From: Candidatus Magasanikbacteria bacterium CG10_big_fil_rev_8_21_14_0_10_47_10
GTDB lineage: Bacteria > Patescibacteriota > Patescibacteriia > Magasanikbacterales > UBA922
NCBI GenBank assembly: GCA_002773135.1
Contig: PFCB01000018.1
Span: 558 to 36,476 of the forward strand
DNA: 35,919 nucleotides
Direction: 5' to 3'
Shown here: positions 29,216 through 35,919 of the stretch, one piece after another
Numbering within the stretch: position 1 is the first letter of the stretch
How the letters are laid out: each line of letters starts with the position of its first letter
Translations under genes and position numbers: made by a program
The notes under the pieces: model-generated
The model's input: the letters and a program-made list of their open reading frames with translations, nothing else
The model's database searches: none
What the model was told of the DNA's origin: nothing

Positions 29216-32200
29216 TCAGACCAATTCAGCCAATACATCTTCTATAACATCATCGATTGAAAAAGGTATACCTTGTTGGATATCTTCTACCGATTCTTCA
29301 AGCGACTTTTTTACCCCGGCAACCAGGTCCGCTCTGGTGACAAATCCGTCAAGAATATAATCCATGACTTCTTCATTTGCCGCTATGGTTGCTTCCACAT
29401 TTCTCCACTGATCATTAAAGACATCAAACCAGCCCTGATCATAGTTCTCCTCAATTTTTGGCATATTTCTTTTGTATGCCGATTCGATTTTGCCTTCCAA
29501 TGTGGCAATCTGTCCGCGAAGACTTGCGACATCAGCCCCTCTTTCAAGTAATTCCGCAAGACGTGCCGCTTCTGCCTTAAAACTCGCGTACTTCTCGTAC
29601 ATATCTGCCATGGCTTTTGTGTTTTCAGTGGACTCCTGTTTCTTCGCTCGTATTTTATCCGGCTGTTTTTCGCGTCCGCGCGCGTGCTTTTTTTCTTTCA
29701 CGCGCTTCTGCTTACCACGAGCGATATCGGCACGCCCCATGTATGGACGCATACCGTCAATAAGCGCGCGCATTTTGGCCAGATGATCAAAAAATTCCGC
29801 CTTGAGTTCATCCGTCATGTCTTCCTTTTTTTCTTTGCTACGCGGGGTCATATCAATCACCACAGCAGGTTTCACAGGCTCTGGTTTTTCCTGTTTTTTT
29901 GCGCTCAGCAAATCAGCGAGCGTTCCCATTGACTCACCGACAGTACCAATCTCGGACGTTCCGCCACCGCGCGTTTCCTCATAAAAATTCTCACTGTAAT
30001 TGCCACCTGCACCTTTTGAAATTTCATACAATTCATCCGGCTGAATATGACCGTTCGATATGCTGACACGGAGCATTTCATTCGCCCCTTCACCGATAAC
30101 CCAGTGTCCATCCGGCAATCGAAAATTGCCCTCGAACCAATCGTGGGCCCTTCCAAAATAGAGTACGTCTCCATTTGCCTGAAATATCAGCTTCTTTCCC
30201 CACGTGCCAATGGGAATGCCACCCTGCCGCGACTCCTGTATGGAAAATGCATCGCCTAATTTGAACCCATCAACGGCATTCACTTTGGCGGCTTTGCCGT
30301 TTTGGACATACACGTATTTGGCCGCAGTTCCCCATTCTTTCATTTTAGTATACAAATCCATGTGTTCCGGCAACGTGACACCGGCCAATATGCCAGTAAG
30401 CTCTTGTATCATTTCTTCAGCTTGCATGACTCTTTGCTCAAACGTCATGTTTCTCACATCGTACGAAGAATACGCTAATGCAAGCAATTGATTGACATGA
30501 GACCATTTTTCTTTGATTATCTCCTGATCAATCCCATCAATCAATCCTGCGTAGGCATCATCGGAAATTATGGTGACCTTCTCACTCATCTTGCTCAATT
30601 TCTCCCGCAACGCGCGGACTTGGGCAATATGTCCCTCAAGATTGCTGATCATATCCGATGCCTCCCACATCTGGACGATGGCCCGTCGGGGATCGTGTGA
30701 AATCAGGCTTTCCGTCCTATTGGACCAATCACCTTGGAGCTTTGAGCGTATACGGCTCAACTCTTCTGAAAAAAGATTATCCCGATCCAAGGACTTCTCC
30801 ACCGTGTCAAGGCGTGCTTTCACCTCATCATGTATATCCCGCGCGGGTTTTGGCAGTTCGCGCATATCTGATTCCCTCAACGCTGCCCGCTGCGCCGTGG
30901 TATGCAGATTCTCGGCATTTTCCGCCGCCTGCCGAGCGTGCTCTTCATTCTGAAAGTACTGGATAAAATAATGCGGTTTGTCTCCAGACCATACCACTTC
31001 CGCGCACACGGCAGGGTATGCAATGAGCGATTTCTGGTCAAAAGAGATTCCGTATTGCAACGGCAGAACCCCAAAAGCCTCCGGCCCGGGAAGCGGCCCT
31101 TCAAGACCCACCCCGTCACCAGGCAATGCCACCCGCTCGTTTACCTTTTTAAACTCTTCAAACAGCTGCGCAGCGTGATGCTCACGCAACTTCAGTATGT
31201 ATGATTCAATGGATGGGAATGATGTACCAAAAAATTCGCTCACCACAATGAGTTCATCATCATCGTCAAACGAAAGAATTTCACTGCGAATGGGTTCTAT
31301 TTCTTTTTCAAGCAGACGAGCGGCATGGTACGAGTCCTCAAGATTCGATCCCGGCATGCCTATTGTTACTTTTTGTACTTTATGCCGGTCATTCCAACTT
31401 TTATCCTCGTACGCATACGTTAATGCATACATATACCCGCCGTACTGCAGAGTATCGGGCTTGTTCTTTTCAATATTTTCCCGTTGTTCGCTCGGACATA
31501 TATCTTCCACGTTCAACAAAAAACCTTCCGGATTTAACTCCATAGCTTCCTGCATGGAAATACTTTCACCCAGCTGACCGGCAATCCATTCATCCAAAAG
31601 AAACAACGGAACAGTACCTTTTGATTTATGAAACAGCTTCGTCACTGTTTGTATAGAATCTTTATTCTCCTGAATATGAAAGAACTTCTGAATCGCAGGG
31701 TCGCTTGAGCCAGCAATATATCTGGCCAGTTCACGTGTGGCTGCACGGCTTCTTTCGATAACCGTGTCTTCGGGTAAGCGTACCCACATGCCGTCTTTTC
31801 TTTGAAACTCGTAGCTCGCCGTTGTCTGCGCAATTCCATCCTTTACTGACACCCGGACATATTCCGGCGTGTCGGTACGACGAACAATTTGGGGAAGGGC
31901 GCGTTCCAGCATGGTTGAACCAATCGGCTGCAAACCCACCGCGTATTTCCATGTGGTTTCACTACTTCCATACTTGGTAGATCTGGTGCCTTTCCCCGGT
32001 TGTAGCCGCATACAGACAGCCATTTCAGGGCTCGCCTTCATTGCATGAGATGTACTGTTAATCCGCACATCCAAATCACCTCTATCAAGACGCTCATACT
32101 GCACACCATGCTTTCTGCCGGTCTTTTTTATCAAATGATCGGGCGCGAACCCGGCGCACAGTGACAGCGCAATGTCATCGACAGATCCGCCTCTCGGCCG

Positions 32201-34096
32201 TTCTATTCCGGCTACGCGCAGCTGTTCCATGATGCGTCCATATTGATCCATTACATACCGCATTTGATCAAAATCATACCCATATTCATGACAAAACCCT
32301 TCCCGATTTTTCGATGATCGAAAGGCATTGAACGCAGCCAAGGCGGTGCCCCAATCTGATCCACGATCATTCTCTGTGGCCAGACTTGCTTGCTTGTCTC
32401 TATAGCGACTTCGAATGTTCCCGACCGCATCACGCTCGCTCTGTTCGTATCCTCTCTCTTTTTTCCATTGATCACGACTCTGTTTAATTTCCGAAACACT
32501 GGGCCGCTTGTTCAAATTCTTCCCCGATAACATTTGAGATACAGCAACAACTTCCGGCACACAAGAATGTTTTTGCGCTTCCACCACCACACGCGCCATA
32601 CGAGGTTCAAGCGGCATGTCCGCCATAACTTCTCCCTCAGGCGTCAGCCGTCTGTCCTTGTCTATAGCGCCGATGGTATACAGCAAATGCAACGCTTCTT
32701 TCAAATTTTGTTCATTGGGCTTGTCTATAAAGTCAAAGTCTTCCACGTCCGTTATACCCGCCCGAATCATTTGCAATACAACCGACGTAATGTCCAAACG
32801 CTTTATGTCAGGTGTTGGTTGGTCATCAAGCGCTTCAAATTGCTCCCGCGAAATCAGCGGATAATAGTGCCCATCTTCCACACGACCGGCCCGACCCTTT
32901 CGCTGTGTGGATTCCGCTTTGCTCACCGGCACCTCTTGAAGTGAAGACAAACGTGTTTCCGGATCAAACACACTTTGATTTTTGCGGCATGAGTCCACCA
33001 CATATTTGACCCCCGGCACGGTGACCGATGTCTCGGCCATATTGGTAGATACAATGACGCGTCGCGTGCCCCGTTTTCCGGGCGACAGTGCCGTATTGCG
33101 CTCGTGTTGAGAAAAACTGCTGTGCAAACCCAGCACCTGTACGCGTTTCCCGCGCGCATTTTGCAATTGCGCCAGTTCATTCTGAATTTCTCGAATGGTT
33201 CTCAAGCCCGGCATGAACACGAGTATGTCCCCATCATCCGTGGATTCCAAAATCGACAGAATGCGATCAATGGCAATAGTGGTATACGGTCTTTCCTTTT
33301 CTTCTCCACTTGGATGCGCGTACGTCAAATCCGCCGGATCAGGAAAATGTTCATCCACAGGAAAAAGCCTGCCTTCCACTTGAAGCGCATGCTCGTCTTT
33401 GATGCCAAAATAATTCTGAAATTTTTCTTTATCAATGGTGGCCGATGCGACAACCACTTTTAACAACGGCTGTCCGCTTTGTGCGCGCAAATGGTTAGCG
33501 CGTTTGACCAACCCCAACACCAAATCGATATTCAAATCGCGCTCATGCGCTTCATCTATCACCACCGCATCATACTGACGAAGTGTGGTGTCATTACGAA
33601 ACTTATTTGCAAGCACTTGCGTCGTCTGTATTTGGAGCGATGTCTCTCGATTATTTCCATGAAATTCAGAGGTGGTAAAACAAATATCCCTTCCAAATTG
33701 CATTCCTGCAAACCGGGCAGCGGTTGCAACCGTCACAGCCTTGGCCGCGTCACGTCTTGGTTGTGTCATTGCCACTCTTACGTTGCCCTCTCCTCTGTGT
33801 TCCTCCAAATGACTCAACGTCCAAACTCCCAACGAAAGAGACTTGCCCGCTCCGGTTTGGGCCTGCACCAACACCGCCTCACTCTCGCGCAATGCTCGGT
33901 CAAATTGATCTTCGTACTTCTCAATGGGAAAATCACGATCCACCAAATCAGTATGTTCTGCTATTTCTCGGATGCTATCCAAACAATCACGCGCGATTTC
34001 CTGTTCTCGATCGCTTCGCAATTTCAAAGAGGCGACAATTTCCGCATCATCGCCACGATCTCGTCCGGGTTGTCCTTCACCTATACGGCGTGCCAT
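29216..34096 (-). CDS. Giant HrpA-like DEAH-box helicase with a long uncharacterised C-terminal region
   Basis: QAQTGAGKS (I), VVIDEAHERD (II), VVASAT (III), VIVSTNMAETSVTVPGVKYVVD (V), QRKGRAGR (VI); HA2-like region; most of the C-terminal half has no domain I recognise. Confidence 0.9.
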   Translation of the reverse strand: MARRIGEGQPGRDRGDDAEIVASLKLRSDREQEIARDCLDSIREIAEHTDLVDRDFPIEKYEDQFDRALRESEAVLVQAQTGAGKSLSLGVWTLSHLEEHRGEGNVRVAMTQPRRDAAKAVTVATAARFAGMQFGRDICFTTSEFHGNNRETSLQIQTTQVLANKFRNDTTLRQYDAVVIDEAHERDLNIDLVLGLVKRANHLRAQSGQPLLKVVVASATIDKEKFQNYFGIKDEHALQVEGRLFPVDEHFPDPADLTYAHPSGEEKERPYTTIAIDRILSILESTDDGDILVFMPGLRTIREIQNELAQLQNARGKRVQVLGLHSSFSQHERNTALSPGKRGTRRVIVSTNMAETSVTVPGVKYVVDSCRKNQSVFDPETRLSSLQEVPVSKAESTQRKGRAGRVEDGHYYPLISREQFEALDDQPTPDIKRLDITSVVLQMIRAGITDVEDFDFIDKPNEQNLKEALHLLYTIGAIDKDRRLTPEGEVMADMPLEPRMARVVVEAQKHSCVPEVVAVSQMLSGKNLNKRPSVSEIKQSRDQWKKERGYEQSERDAVGNIRSRYRDKQASLATENDRGSDWGTALAAFNAFRSSKNREGFCHEYGYDFDQMRYVMDQYGRIMEQLRVAGIERPRGGSVDDIALSLCAGFAPDHLIKKTGRKHGVQYERLDRGDLDVRINSTSHAMKASPEMAVCMRLQPGKGTRSTKYGSSETTWKYAVGLQPIGSTMLERALPQIVRRTDTPEYVRVSVKDGIAQTTASYEFQRKDGMWVRLPEDTVIERSRAATRELARYIAGSSDPAIQKFFHIQENKDSIQTVTKLFHKSKGTVPLFLLDEWIAGQLGESISMQEAMELNPEGFLLNVEDICPSEQRENIEKNKPDTLQYGGYMYALTYAYEDKSWNDRHKVQKVTIGMPGSNLEDSYHAARLLEKEIEPIRSEILSFDDDDELIVVSEFFGTSFPSIESYILKLREHHAAQLFEEFKKVNERVALPGDGVGLEGPLPGPEAFGVLPLQYGISFDQKSLIAYPAVCAEVVWSGDKPHYFIQYFQNEEHARQAAENAENLHTTAQRAALRESDMRELPKPARDIHDEVKARLDTVEKSLDRDNLFSEELSRIRSKLQGDWSNRTESLISHDPRRAIVQMWEASDMISNLEGHIAQVRALREKLSKMSEKVTIISDDAYAGLIDGIDQEIIKEKWSHVNQLLALAYSSYDVRNMTFEQRVMQAEEMIQELTGILAGVTLPEHMDLYTKMKEWGTAAKYVYVQNGKAAKVNAVDGFKLGDAFSIQESRQGGIPIGTWGKKLIFQANGDVLYFGRAHDWFEGNFRLPDGHWVIGEGANEMLRVSISNGHIQPDELYEISKGAGGNYSENFYEETRGGGTSEIGTVGESMGTLADLLSAKKQEKPEPVKPAVVIDMTPRSKEKKEDMTDELKAEFFDHLAKMRALIDGMRPYMGRADIARGKQKRVKEKKHARGREKQPDKIRAKKQESTENTKAMADMYEKYASFKAEAARLAELLERGADVASLRGQIATLEGKIESAYKRNMPKIEENYDQGWFDVFNDQWRNVEATIAANEEVMDYILDGFVTRADLVAGVKKSLEESVEDIQQGIPFSIDDVIEDVLAELV

Positions 34097-34663: not shown

Positions 34664-34686
34664 AAAAAACCGCGTGCGAAGCGGTT
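34664..34686 (-). terminator. Intrinsic terminator for minus-strand transcription out of the right-end region
   Basis: Minus strand AACCGC-ttcgcac-GCGGTT-TTTT. Confidence 0.7.
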
Positions 34687-34819
34687 ATCTTATTTCCACG
34701 CCTTTCCCTACCAGCAATGTCCCGCTTGCGCGGGTCATGTCCGGAAAAATCTTCAGCGGGGAGAGAGTACTCTGCCCGACAGGTCGGGTCAAAGATCCGC
34801 CTGGGATCTTGCCGACCAT
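34685..34819 (-). CDS. Possible 44-aa ORF, or structured RNA
   Basis: MVGKIPGGSLTRPVGQSTLSPLKIFPDMTRASGTLLVGKGVEIR; its TAA overlaps the terminator. No clear SD and many internal hairpins. Confidence 0.25.
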   Translation of the reverse strand: MVGKIPGGSLTRPVGQSTLSPLKIFPDMTRASGTLLVGKGVEIR

Positions 34820-34848
34820 GCACTGCTGGTGGGAAAAGGGGTGGAAAC

Positions 34849-34916
34849 CCCTTTCAACACTCAATCAACTTAAGTGTTCAAAGGGAATCGGCTCGTTGCA
34901 TGTGCATGCGTTGAGC
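34849..34916 (-). repeat. Two-hairpin structured element, copy A
   Basis: Minus strand CGGCTC-aac-GCAT-GCAC-ATGC-aac-GAGCCG followed by CCCTTTGAACACTTAA-gttga-TTGAGTGTTGAAAGGG. Confidence 0.6.
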
Positions 34917-35063
34917 CGTATCCGAGTTGCATTGTCCATCTTTCGACGGACTGCCCGACTGCGTCGGGCTATTGTTTGCGTTGACCTCCACGCATCGGGC
35001 CCAGGGCCCACTAAGGTGTATTCTTTTTTTAACGCGGGAATACGAAAACCCTCGTTGAGAGCT

Positions 35064-35276
35064 CTACGAGCCGAGGATCTTTCGAAGATCCTCGGCCAGG
35101 CCCAGACGCTCGACGAGCGCCCGGGCCTCCTCGTGCTCTCGGTCCCCGAGGTGCCGCGGCAAGCCGCAGAACCCCGGGGTGCCAGTCATCGCCCACTGCT
35201 GCCCGAAGGCAAGCAGCAAGGCGAGCTGGCGCTCGGTGAGGGTCACCTCGCGGGTGCCCTCGGGGGTCTCATCCAC
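35064..35276 (-). CDS. Small GC-rich ORF (70 aa), function unknown
   Basis: AGGAGG, 4 nt, then GTG; VDETPEGTREVTLTERQLALLLAFGQQWAMTGTPGFCGLPRHLGDREHEEARALVERLGLAEDLRKILGS. Confidence 0.55.
   Translation of the reverse strand: MDETPEGTREVTLTERQLALLLAFGQQWAMTGTPGFCGLPRHLGDREHEEARALVERLGLAEDLRKILGS
35070..35096. repeat. Perfect 12-bp inverted repeat in the 3' end of the small ORF
   Basis: GCCGAGGATCTT-tcg-AAGATCCTCGGC. Confidence 0.85.
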
Positions 35277-35295
35277 TCTCCCTCCTTTTTTAGAC

Positions 35296-35360
35296 TCCCT
35301 TGAAACTCTTAACATAAGAATCTCGAGGGAATCCGGCTCTACTTTGTGCAAAGTGAGCCG
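35296..35360 (-). repeat. Two-hairpin structured element, copy B, in the 5' leader of the small ORF
   Basis: Minus strand CGGCTC-a-CTTT-GCAC-AAAG-ta-GAGCCG followed by TCCCTCGAGATTCTT-atgtt-AAGAGTTTCAAGGGA. Confidence 0.6.
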
Positions 35361-35454
35361 TTTCCGAATGCTACGTATTTATCCAGCCGTCGCTGCGCTC
35401 ATGTGGTTTTTCTGTAGGGTCGCCTACAAATTTCCACTCTAGCCATGAGCTTGG

Positions 35455-35511
35455 CAGGCCAAGTATGCTTTCGTTCATCCCATTGCAGGATGGCATACTA
35501 TCGTTGGCCTG
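35455..35511. repeat. Long composite hairpin downstream of the second GC-rich ORF
   Basis: CAGGCCA-AGTATGC-tttcgtt-CATCC-cattgca-GGATG-GCATACT-atcgt-TGGCCTG. Confidence 0.7.
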
Positions 35512-35548
35512 TCCCGGTTTTCTGCCGGTTCAGTTTCTCCACCCGCGG

Positions 35549-35827
35549 CTAGATCTTTCCGTCGGCGGCGTCGAATACGTCGCCAAACGAGACCTGGCCG
35601 CGGGGGCCCCTGAAGCCGTCGTTGGTCCAGAAGCCAGGACTGCAGCAAGTGCAGCCGGCCTCCTCCCAACGAAACGTCGGCTCCAGTCCGGGGACGATGT
35701 GCTTTCCGTCGCAGAGCGGCCGACCCTCCCGAAGGAGAATCCGCGCCGCCCGCTTCGCAGGGCCCATCGCCAGGCCCGCCTTCCGAAAAAGGCGGGCCAC
35801 CCGGTTGACGCATTTCTTTCGCGTCAT
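35549..35827 (-). CDS. Small GC-rich ORF (92 aa), function unknown
   Basis: MTRKKCVNRVARLFRKAGLAMGPAKRAARILLREGRPLCDGKHIVPGLEPTFRWEEAGCTCCSPGFWTNDGFRGPRGQVSFGDVFDAADGKI; more protein-like than the competing frame. Confidence 0.5.
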   Translation of the reverse strand: MTRKKCVNRVARLFRKAGLAMGPAKRAARILLREGRPLCDGKHIVPGLEPTFRWEEAGCTCCSPGFWTNDGFRGPRGQVSFGDVFDAADGKI

Positions 35828-35834
35828 TGGTCAT

Positions 35835-35882
35835 CCACCACGTCTTGCACTCCTCGCTCCCGAGGGCTATTCGACGTGGTGG
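35835..35882. repeat. Composite hairpin immediately upstream of the second GC-rich ORF
   Basis: CCACCACGTC ... CCTCG-ctcc-CGAGG ... GACGTGGTGG. Confidence 0.7.
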
Positions 35883-35919
35883 CCCTTTTTTAATTTCCTA
35901 CAGATACTTTTTCTAAATC

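Follow-up and report, generated by a model that had tools for sequence, protein, structure and literature searches.

The two-hairpin element on the minus strand of the window (the whole stretch of DNA analysed, 35,919 nt) is, on the reading that we favour, a conserved module at the 3' terminus of a larger structured RNA. On this reading the RNA stands after high-GC, horizontally mixed ORFs in Patescibacteria-like genomes and would serve in cis as the tail or boundary of a gene cassette; on sequence grounds we put this reading, taken whole, only a little short of even. Of its parts, the identity of the element as structured RNA is very probable, and the role in cis, in marking a boundary or giving stability, is proposed tentatively, at somewhat below even. 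The tail module, the cores upstream of it, the place after the ORF stop and the presence of different ORFs between near-identical flanks are read from sequence and covariation.

Three copies of the element

Copies A and B lie within the window (Table 1), and a third, C, was found at contig position 36619-36656, 0.7 kb beyond B and outside the window, past which the contig extends for 989 bases. A sequence-only reading of this DNA had described two structured copies on the minus strand; A and B are indeed present, and the total should be three. Both fold far beyond expectation, with energies of -35.0 kcal/mol (z -5.4) for A and -36.7 kcal/mol (z -6.8) for B, none of 200 dinucleotide shuffles being as good in either case. 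The CGGCTC/GAGCCG stem common to A and B, the shared GCAC loop (in the form U[GCAC]A), the upper stem that has changed yet remains paired (GCAU/AUGC against CUUU/AAAG) and the position of copy B just upstream of an AAGGAGG..GTG ORF had all been correctly recognised. Near-total sequence change in the second hairpin with retention of pairing also stands, although the loop of 5 nt attributed to it has 3 nt in copy B. A conserved AAUGCAACUC precedes hairpin 1 of copy A.

Copy C, with the sequence GGGAUACGGCUC-AUGCACAC-GAGCCGAUUCCC, is preceded by a high-GC gene fragment. It keeps U[GCAC]A, with the upper stem reduced to one U-A pair, and where other copies have a simple hairpin 2 it has a long rod built from CUUG/CAAG steps. 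In this rod (L002:1640-1700) the steps are of 4 bp with 3-nt internal loops between them, and similar heptad repeats are present in genomes G020 and G009. An assembly gap follows copy C, which is adjoined by contig joins with N. A covariance model built from the genome's own copies A, B and C (CM R1) scores copy A at 62.5 bits and copy B at 55.7 bits; together with a loose pattern it finds no further copy in the 1.04-Mb genome (46.7% GC, 36 contigs), and all three lie in one array and in one orientation.

Table 1. Array features in the window, listed in the 5' to 3' direction of the minus strand
Feature	Position	Strand	Description
Leader, 86 bp	35832..35917	-	strong CCACCACGUC/GACGUGGUGG hairpin; ends at the start-codon region of ORF2
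ORF2	35549..35827	-	92-aa orphan, GC 0.66
Type-B RNA core (putative), upstream of copy B	35403..35535	-	AACUGAACCGGCAGAAAACCGGGACAG ... GGCUAGAGUGG ... GGCGACCC ... GAAAAACCAC
Copy B	35295..35365	-	
Copy B hairpin 1	35328..35365	-	outer stem GGAA/UUCC, stem CGGCUC/GAGCCG, upper stem ACUUU/AAAGU, loop GCAC
Copy B hairpin 2	35295..35331	-	6 bp, 1x1 C-A mismatch, 10 bp, loop of 3 nt
ORF1	35064..35279	-	71-aa orphan, GTG start after AAGGAGGGAGA
Type-A RNA core, upstream of copy A	34978..35056	-	pseudoknot P1/P2, SL1, SL2 with loop GGAGGUCA
P2 of the pseudoknot	35018..35043	-	GUAUUC 35043-35038 (5' strand), GAAUAC 35023-35018 (3' strand)
SL2	34978..34993	-	stem GCGU/ACGC, Shine-Dalgarno-like loop GGAGGUCA
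Copy A	34849..34923	-	
Copy A hairpin 1	34884..34923	-	outer stem GGA/UCC, stem CGGCUC/GAGCCG, upper stem GCAU/AUGC, loop GCAC
Copy A hairpin 2	34849..34885	-	6 bp, 1x1 G-G mismatch, 9 bp, loop of 5 nt
Large imperfect hairpin after copy A	34690..34849	-	GGUUUCCACCCCUUUUCCCACCAGCA paired with UGCUGGUAGGGAAAGGCGUGGAAAU (RNAfold)
Terminator-like hairpin closing the array	34664..34686	-	AACCGCUUCGCACGCGGUUUUUU, from sequence

The larger RNA and its homologues

No match to CM R1 was obtained in 46 genomes of the family and 381 of the class, since the stems differ between genomes, and searches with exact hairpin-1 patterns of family genomes, IMG/VR and GTDB contigs yielded only chance or coding matches. 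With whole intergenic DNA as query, the region upstream of copy A matched genome G027 (84% over 104 nt, E 2.5e-23) and that upstream of copy B matched G431; a homologue in G055 came from further search. A second covariance model (CM R2), of the type-A core found upstream of copy A, was run on the 381 class genomes and scored 76.6 bits in the window's own genome, 76.7 in G055 and 57.5 in G290, the latter two belonging to two other families. The type-A core is present in four genomes of three families (own, G027, G055 and G290). Comparison of the RNA with phage, plasmid and IMG/VR sequences came back empty apart from two weak plasmid matches in the ORF1 stretch. A candidate homologue in G030 of the region upstream of copy C was rejected, the match being a lone CGCGAAGCG hairpin, apparently an ordinary terminator; several further-search matches below 41 bits rest on this same hairpin.

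The type-A core is arranged as an H-type pseudoknot (in which P1 was assigned by eye), CCUUAGU[G/A]G, SL1, GAU and SL2. P2 is replaced in the homologues by GUGUUC/GAACAC, GUCUUC/GAAGAC and ACGUUC/GAACGU, and the SL2 stem likewise covaries (GGGU/ACCC, GCCU/AGGC) beneath a loop, GGAGGUCA, that is identical in the four genomes. Over P2, SL1 and SL2 in the four sequences, all 56 pair cells are standard and half of the pairs (7 of 14) have changed on both sides; the covariation score was reached by none of 500 shuffles and every slid version collapses. The type-A core thus passes the test of compensatory change, as expected of a structured RNA under selection.

An invariant GGAGGUCA loop on a covarying stem, together with the length of the conserved pseudoknot core and the large size of the whole, would also fit a trans-acting ncRNA, co-expressed with the cassette transcript or processed from it and meeting, for example, the ribosome through that loop. 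We regard this as distinctly improbable: the divergence between types A and B is very large for the trans RNA of one genome, and pairing of the loop with the anti-Shine-Dalgarno sequence is presumed.

Support for the type-B core, upstream of copy B, is weaker and comes from two sequences. Homologues occur in G431 and, in the window's own genome, at the end of contig C1. The window's type-B sequence and that of G431 share AACUGxACCGGCAGAAAACCGGGACAG, GGCUAGAGUGG and GAAAAACCAC, and a putative hairpin with a CGAC loop reads GUAGG/CCUAC in the former and GCAGG/CCUGC in the latter. Types A and B and the sequence that lies upstream of copy C cannot be aligned to one another, and the standing of the three regions as one family therefore rests on their shared tail.

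That tail was recovered with different, still paired stems in two other genomes, G027 and G431. In G027 it reads AAUGCACUUGGAAG..CUGUCAGAUGUAGU-UGCAC-ACUACGUCUGACAG..CUUCC followed by a hairpin of 8 bp / 1x1 / 6 bp, and in G431 UUGCACUCGGGUAUGGGGAA..GGUU-ACAC-AACC..UUCCCC followed by one of 8 bp / 1x1 / 10 bp. The known set is small and amounts to five tail copies and four type-A cores. Across the five tails the helices of hairpin 1, assigned by eye and then checked by script, contain only Watson-Crick pairs, with up to three pair types per position in the inner stem; all that stays constant is the 5' flank GCA..UYGG, the U[G/A]CACA loop and the outer stem at its base. The plan of hairpin 2 (6-8 bp / 1x1 / 6-11 bp / loop of 3-5 nt) is found in copies A and B, in G027 and at each end of the G431 cassette. 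The minus-strand two-hairpin RNA with compensatory change proposed from the sequence alone survives in substance but not in extent: what had been overlooked is the larger conserved RNA of which the two hairpins form the tail.

These comparisons also bear on the notion that the copies are plain DNA palindromes (of MITE, REP or double-hairpin type) or an assembly artefact, lacking RNA function. The genome does hold other palindromic repeat families, both strands fold, and the N contig joins lie beside copy C. Against this, covariation extends over four genomes, the loop and internal sequence are kept while the stems change, the place 3' of ORFs is fixed, and the same modules have been independently assembled in five genomes. 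We consider such an origin hardly probable at all.

Position, cargo and strand

In five genomes (own, G027, G431, G055 and G290) the larger RNA has an ORF of the same strand on its 5' side; the type-A core comes, in each genome, after the stop of a high-GC ORF. The cargo varies by locus and includes orphans, an AAA_33 kinase, a PPDK-like protein, a TSP3-repeat protein and DUF1232, and the neighbours of the loci include ribosomal proteins in G290 and gyrase-like proteins in G027 (names read from the sequences). The array ORFs in the window's genome are of 63-70% GC and match no Pfam family. Homologues of ORF2 were sought and none found; for the gene beyond copy C one good relative was found. 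The spacers between array ORFs are hairpin-rich and of 270-430 nt, the RNA itself measuring 250-400 nt; the element always occupies the 3' end of the spacer, next to which comes an ORF, the leader or a terminator. Hairpins resembling hairpin 2 occur near 6 of 15 high-GC genes, against 14% expected, a weak enrichment.

Several other observations were made around high-GC genes and repeats. A simple gene caller, with some weak calls, gives 68 high-GC (>56%) genes genome-wide, often single, and long strings of hairpins stand just 3' of the stop at several of them (for example C30:26.37-26.87 kb and C7:37.38-37.55 kb). About five high-GC ORFs form an array with structured spacers at G290:C33, ~53-57 kb (L237), and one of these spacers looks tRNA-like (GGCATCG...GGTTCAACTCC...CGATGCCA). 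A palindromic repeat family, TGTCATTCCCGCGAAAGCGGGAATCCAGT, is dispersed on contigs C1, C2, C12, C29 and C35, with up to 13 matches. Elsewhere in the window (29216-34096, minus strand) is a 1626-aa DEAH-type helicase with a long C-terminal part that has no assignment; only two related genes were seen among the 46 family genomes.

Contig C1 carries the identical 86-bp leader ahead of a different ORF, and behind that ORF comes a 3' region that matches the region following ORF2 with 92% identity over 37 nt, where the contig ends. Between the product of ORF2 and that of the leader-linked ORF on C1 there is no similarity. Since C1 and C32 share the leader and the start of the 3' RNA around unrelated ORFs, the ORFs differ between conserved flanks. 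This second cassette, at L052:1-547, encodes a Cys-rich product. Both contigs end inside shared repeats, and the array is probably longer than assembled. The intergenic region L052:1150-2100 of C1, which adjoins the array end, folds strongly without an Rfam match and is unrelated in sequence to the elements.

Such an arrangement admits the strongest rival explanation, namely that a unit running hairpin 2 - leader - ORF - structured RNA - hairpin 1 is mobile, being captured and shuffled by a recombinase or a reverse-transcription step that recognises the hairpins as RNA or single-stranded DNA. Besides the leader and 3' RNA start common to C32 and C1, the different cargo at each locus would suit it, as would the G431 unit, in which one isolated high-GC gene in a contig of 43% GC is bracketed by hairpin-2-like structures, and the capacity of the element hairpins to fold on either strand. 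In integron attC sites the R-box motifs R'' RYYYAAC and R' GTTRRRY bracket the palindrome; this pair is absent from both strands of all six intergenic sequences. No integron-type integrase was found beside the array in the assembled contigs, the array being cut by contig ends, and the only Phage_integrase match of the genome is an Xer-like protein of 329 aa, at C1:27.5 kb, far from the array. The candidate left-boundary site CGCAWTTCCC occurs many times and is not specific, and the boundaries of ORF exchange fall at the leader end and the RNA start, not at the element. We judge mobility of this kind to be rather unlikely.

The place of copy B directly upstream of the AAGGAGG-GTG ORF had been taken to hint at action through that ORF, as a riboswitch, attenuator or RNA thermometer would act on the gene that follows; the UCCCUC of the element could, from the sequence, pair with GGAGGGA of its ribosome site. 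The hint is not supported by the other copies: directly below copy A comes the terminator region and no ORF, and copy C gives way to the assembly gap. AT-rich sequence follows the G431 tail, and the ORFs downstream, orphans unrelated to one another, share no pathway to be regulated. A riboswitch in particular was rejected, the element standing not 5' of genes of one pathway but 3' of unrelated ORFs. Cis-regulation of the following ORF is, in our estimation, very improbable.

As for the strand, it had been argued that wobbles which are G-U on the minus strand and A-C on the plus strand identify a minus-strand RNA. This argument was incomplete. Over all helices of the three copies, 5 G-U pairs exist only on the minus strand and 8 only on the plus strand, and the tally accordingly picks neither; the C-A mismatch in hairpin 2 of copy B would be G-U on the plus strand, as would two mismatches in hairpin 1 of copy A and several in copy C. 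Both strands of the intergenic regions fold strongly (z -6 to -10 on the minus), and the element hairpins fold nearly as well on the opposite strand. The minus strand is nevertheless supported as the better reading: the larger RNA lies 3' of the ORF on the ORF's own strand in the five genomes, which points to a sense (here minus-strand) RNA, and the covariation of the core agrees with it.

Known families and the proposed role

The earlier judgement that the element belongs to no recognised riboswitch or ncRNA class agrees with the Rfam comparisons. At gathering score only a tRNA was matched in the window, and the array, the C1 end and the three homologous loci were without match; nor did any of 4227 models match the array and the three loci when below-threshold searches were included. 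Nothing relevant to such an RNA in these bacteria was found in the open-access literature. The RNA is thus a strong candidate for a new class, with no match among the families tested.

Some known systems nevertheless resemble it. GOLLD, ROOL, HEARO and OLE are large structured bacterial RNAs of unknown role; they too are intergenic, several hundred nt long and built of pseudoknots and many hairpins, but the RNA described here matches none of the 4227 Rfam models. REP/BIME and the mitochondrial double-hairpin elements consist of paired neighbouring intergenic hairpins with variable stem sequence, as here; in contrast to both, the present element has three copies in a single array and lies inside a larger covarying conserved RNA. 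Ends of insertion sequences, offered earlier along with plain DNA repeats as an alternative, failed the test of paired ends around a transposase: the three copies share one array and orientation, there is no transposase, and the array ORFs have no Pfam match. Integron attC sites, whose features are taken from PMC8946536, are likewise imperfect palindromes with little sequence conservation that follow unrelated, foreign-looking ORFs in an array and have a variable terminal part. Beyond the missing R-box pair and integrase, the structured region here is far longer, and the loop, variable in attC, is conserved. Candidate riboswitch and structured-motif classes that came from comparative genomics, for example by the DIMPL pipeline (PMC8723152), share the GC-rich intergenic setting, the covariation and a function that is not known; they are mostly 5' leaders of related genes, whereas the present RNA is 3' of unrelated genes.

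What leads us to prefer a role in cis is that the RNA keeps a fixed position 3' of the ORF, that a terminator-like hairpin closes the array and that hairpin 2 has a plan which may be that of an RNase site. Each ORF and the RNA behind it would be transcribed together, on the minus strand here, the RNA being both tail and boundary of the cassette transcript. The shared stem / 1x1 / stem plan suggests hairpin 2 as a putative RNase III-type processing site, where a double-strand-specific RNase might cut or one unit be set off from the next. The constant loop of hairpin 1 could be where a protein or an RNA docks, and the fold upstream could protect the 3' end and so allow a short foreign ORF to be expressed whatever its neighbours. 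The invariant Shine-Dalgarno-like GGAGGUCA loop may also touch the ribosome.

Patescibacteria live at the expense of other cells and their genomes are very small, yet the present genome contains dozens of high-GC genes that look acquired. In its widest form, which we think unlikely, the proposal would be that Patescibacteria possess an undescribed gene-cassette system. Unrelated high-GC ORFs would be swapped into the space between a conserved leader on the 5' side and, on the 3' side, a large conserved RNA that contains the pseudoknot and ends in the two hairpins; this RNA, as such or in its DNA form, would serve both capture and expression. The pair counts make the RNA claim directly testable. 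If the RNA is tied to such genes in several families it would be a new RNA class, and if those genes are acquired it would offer a handle on the uptake or expression of foreign genes in Patescibacteria.
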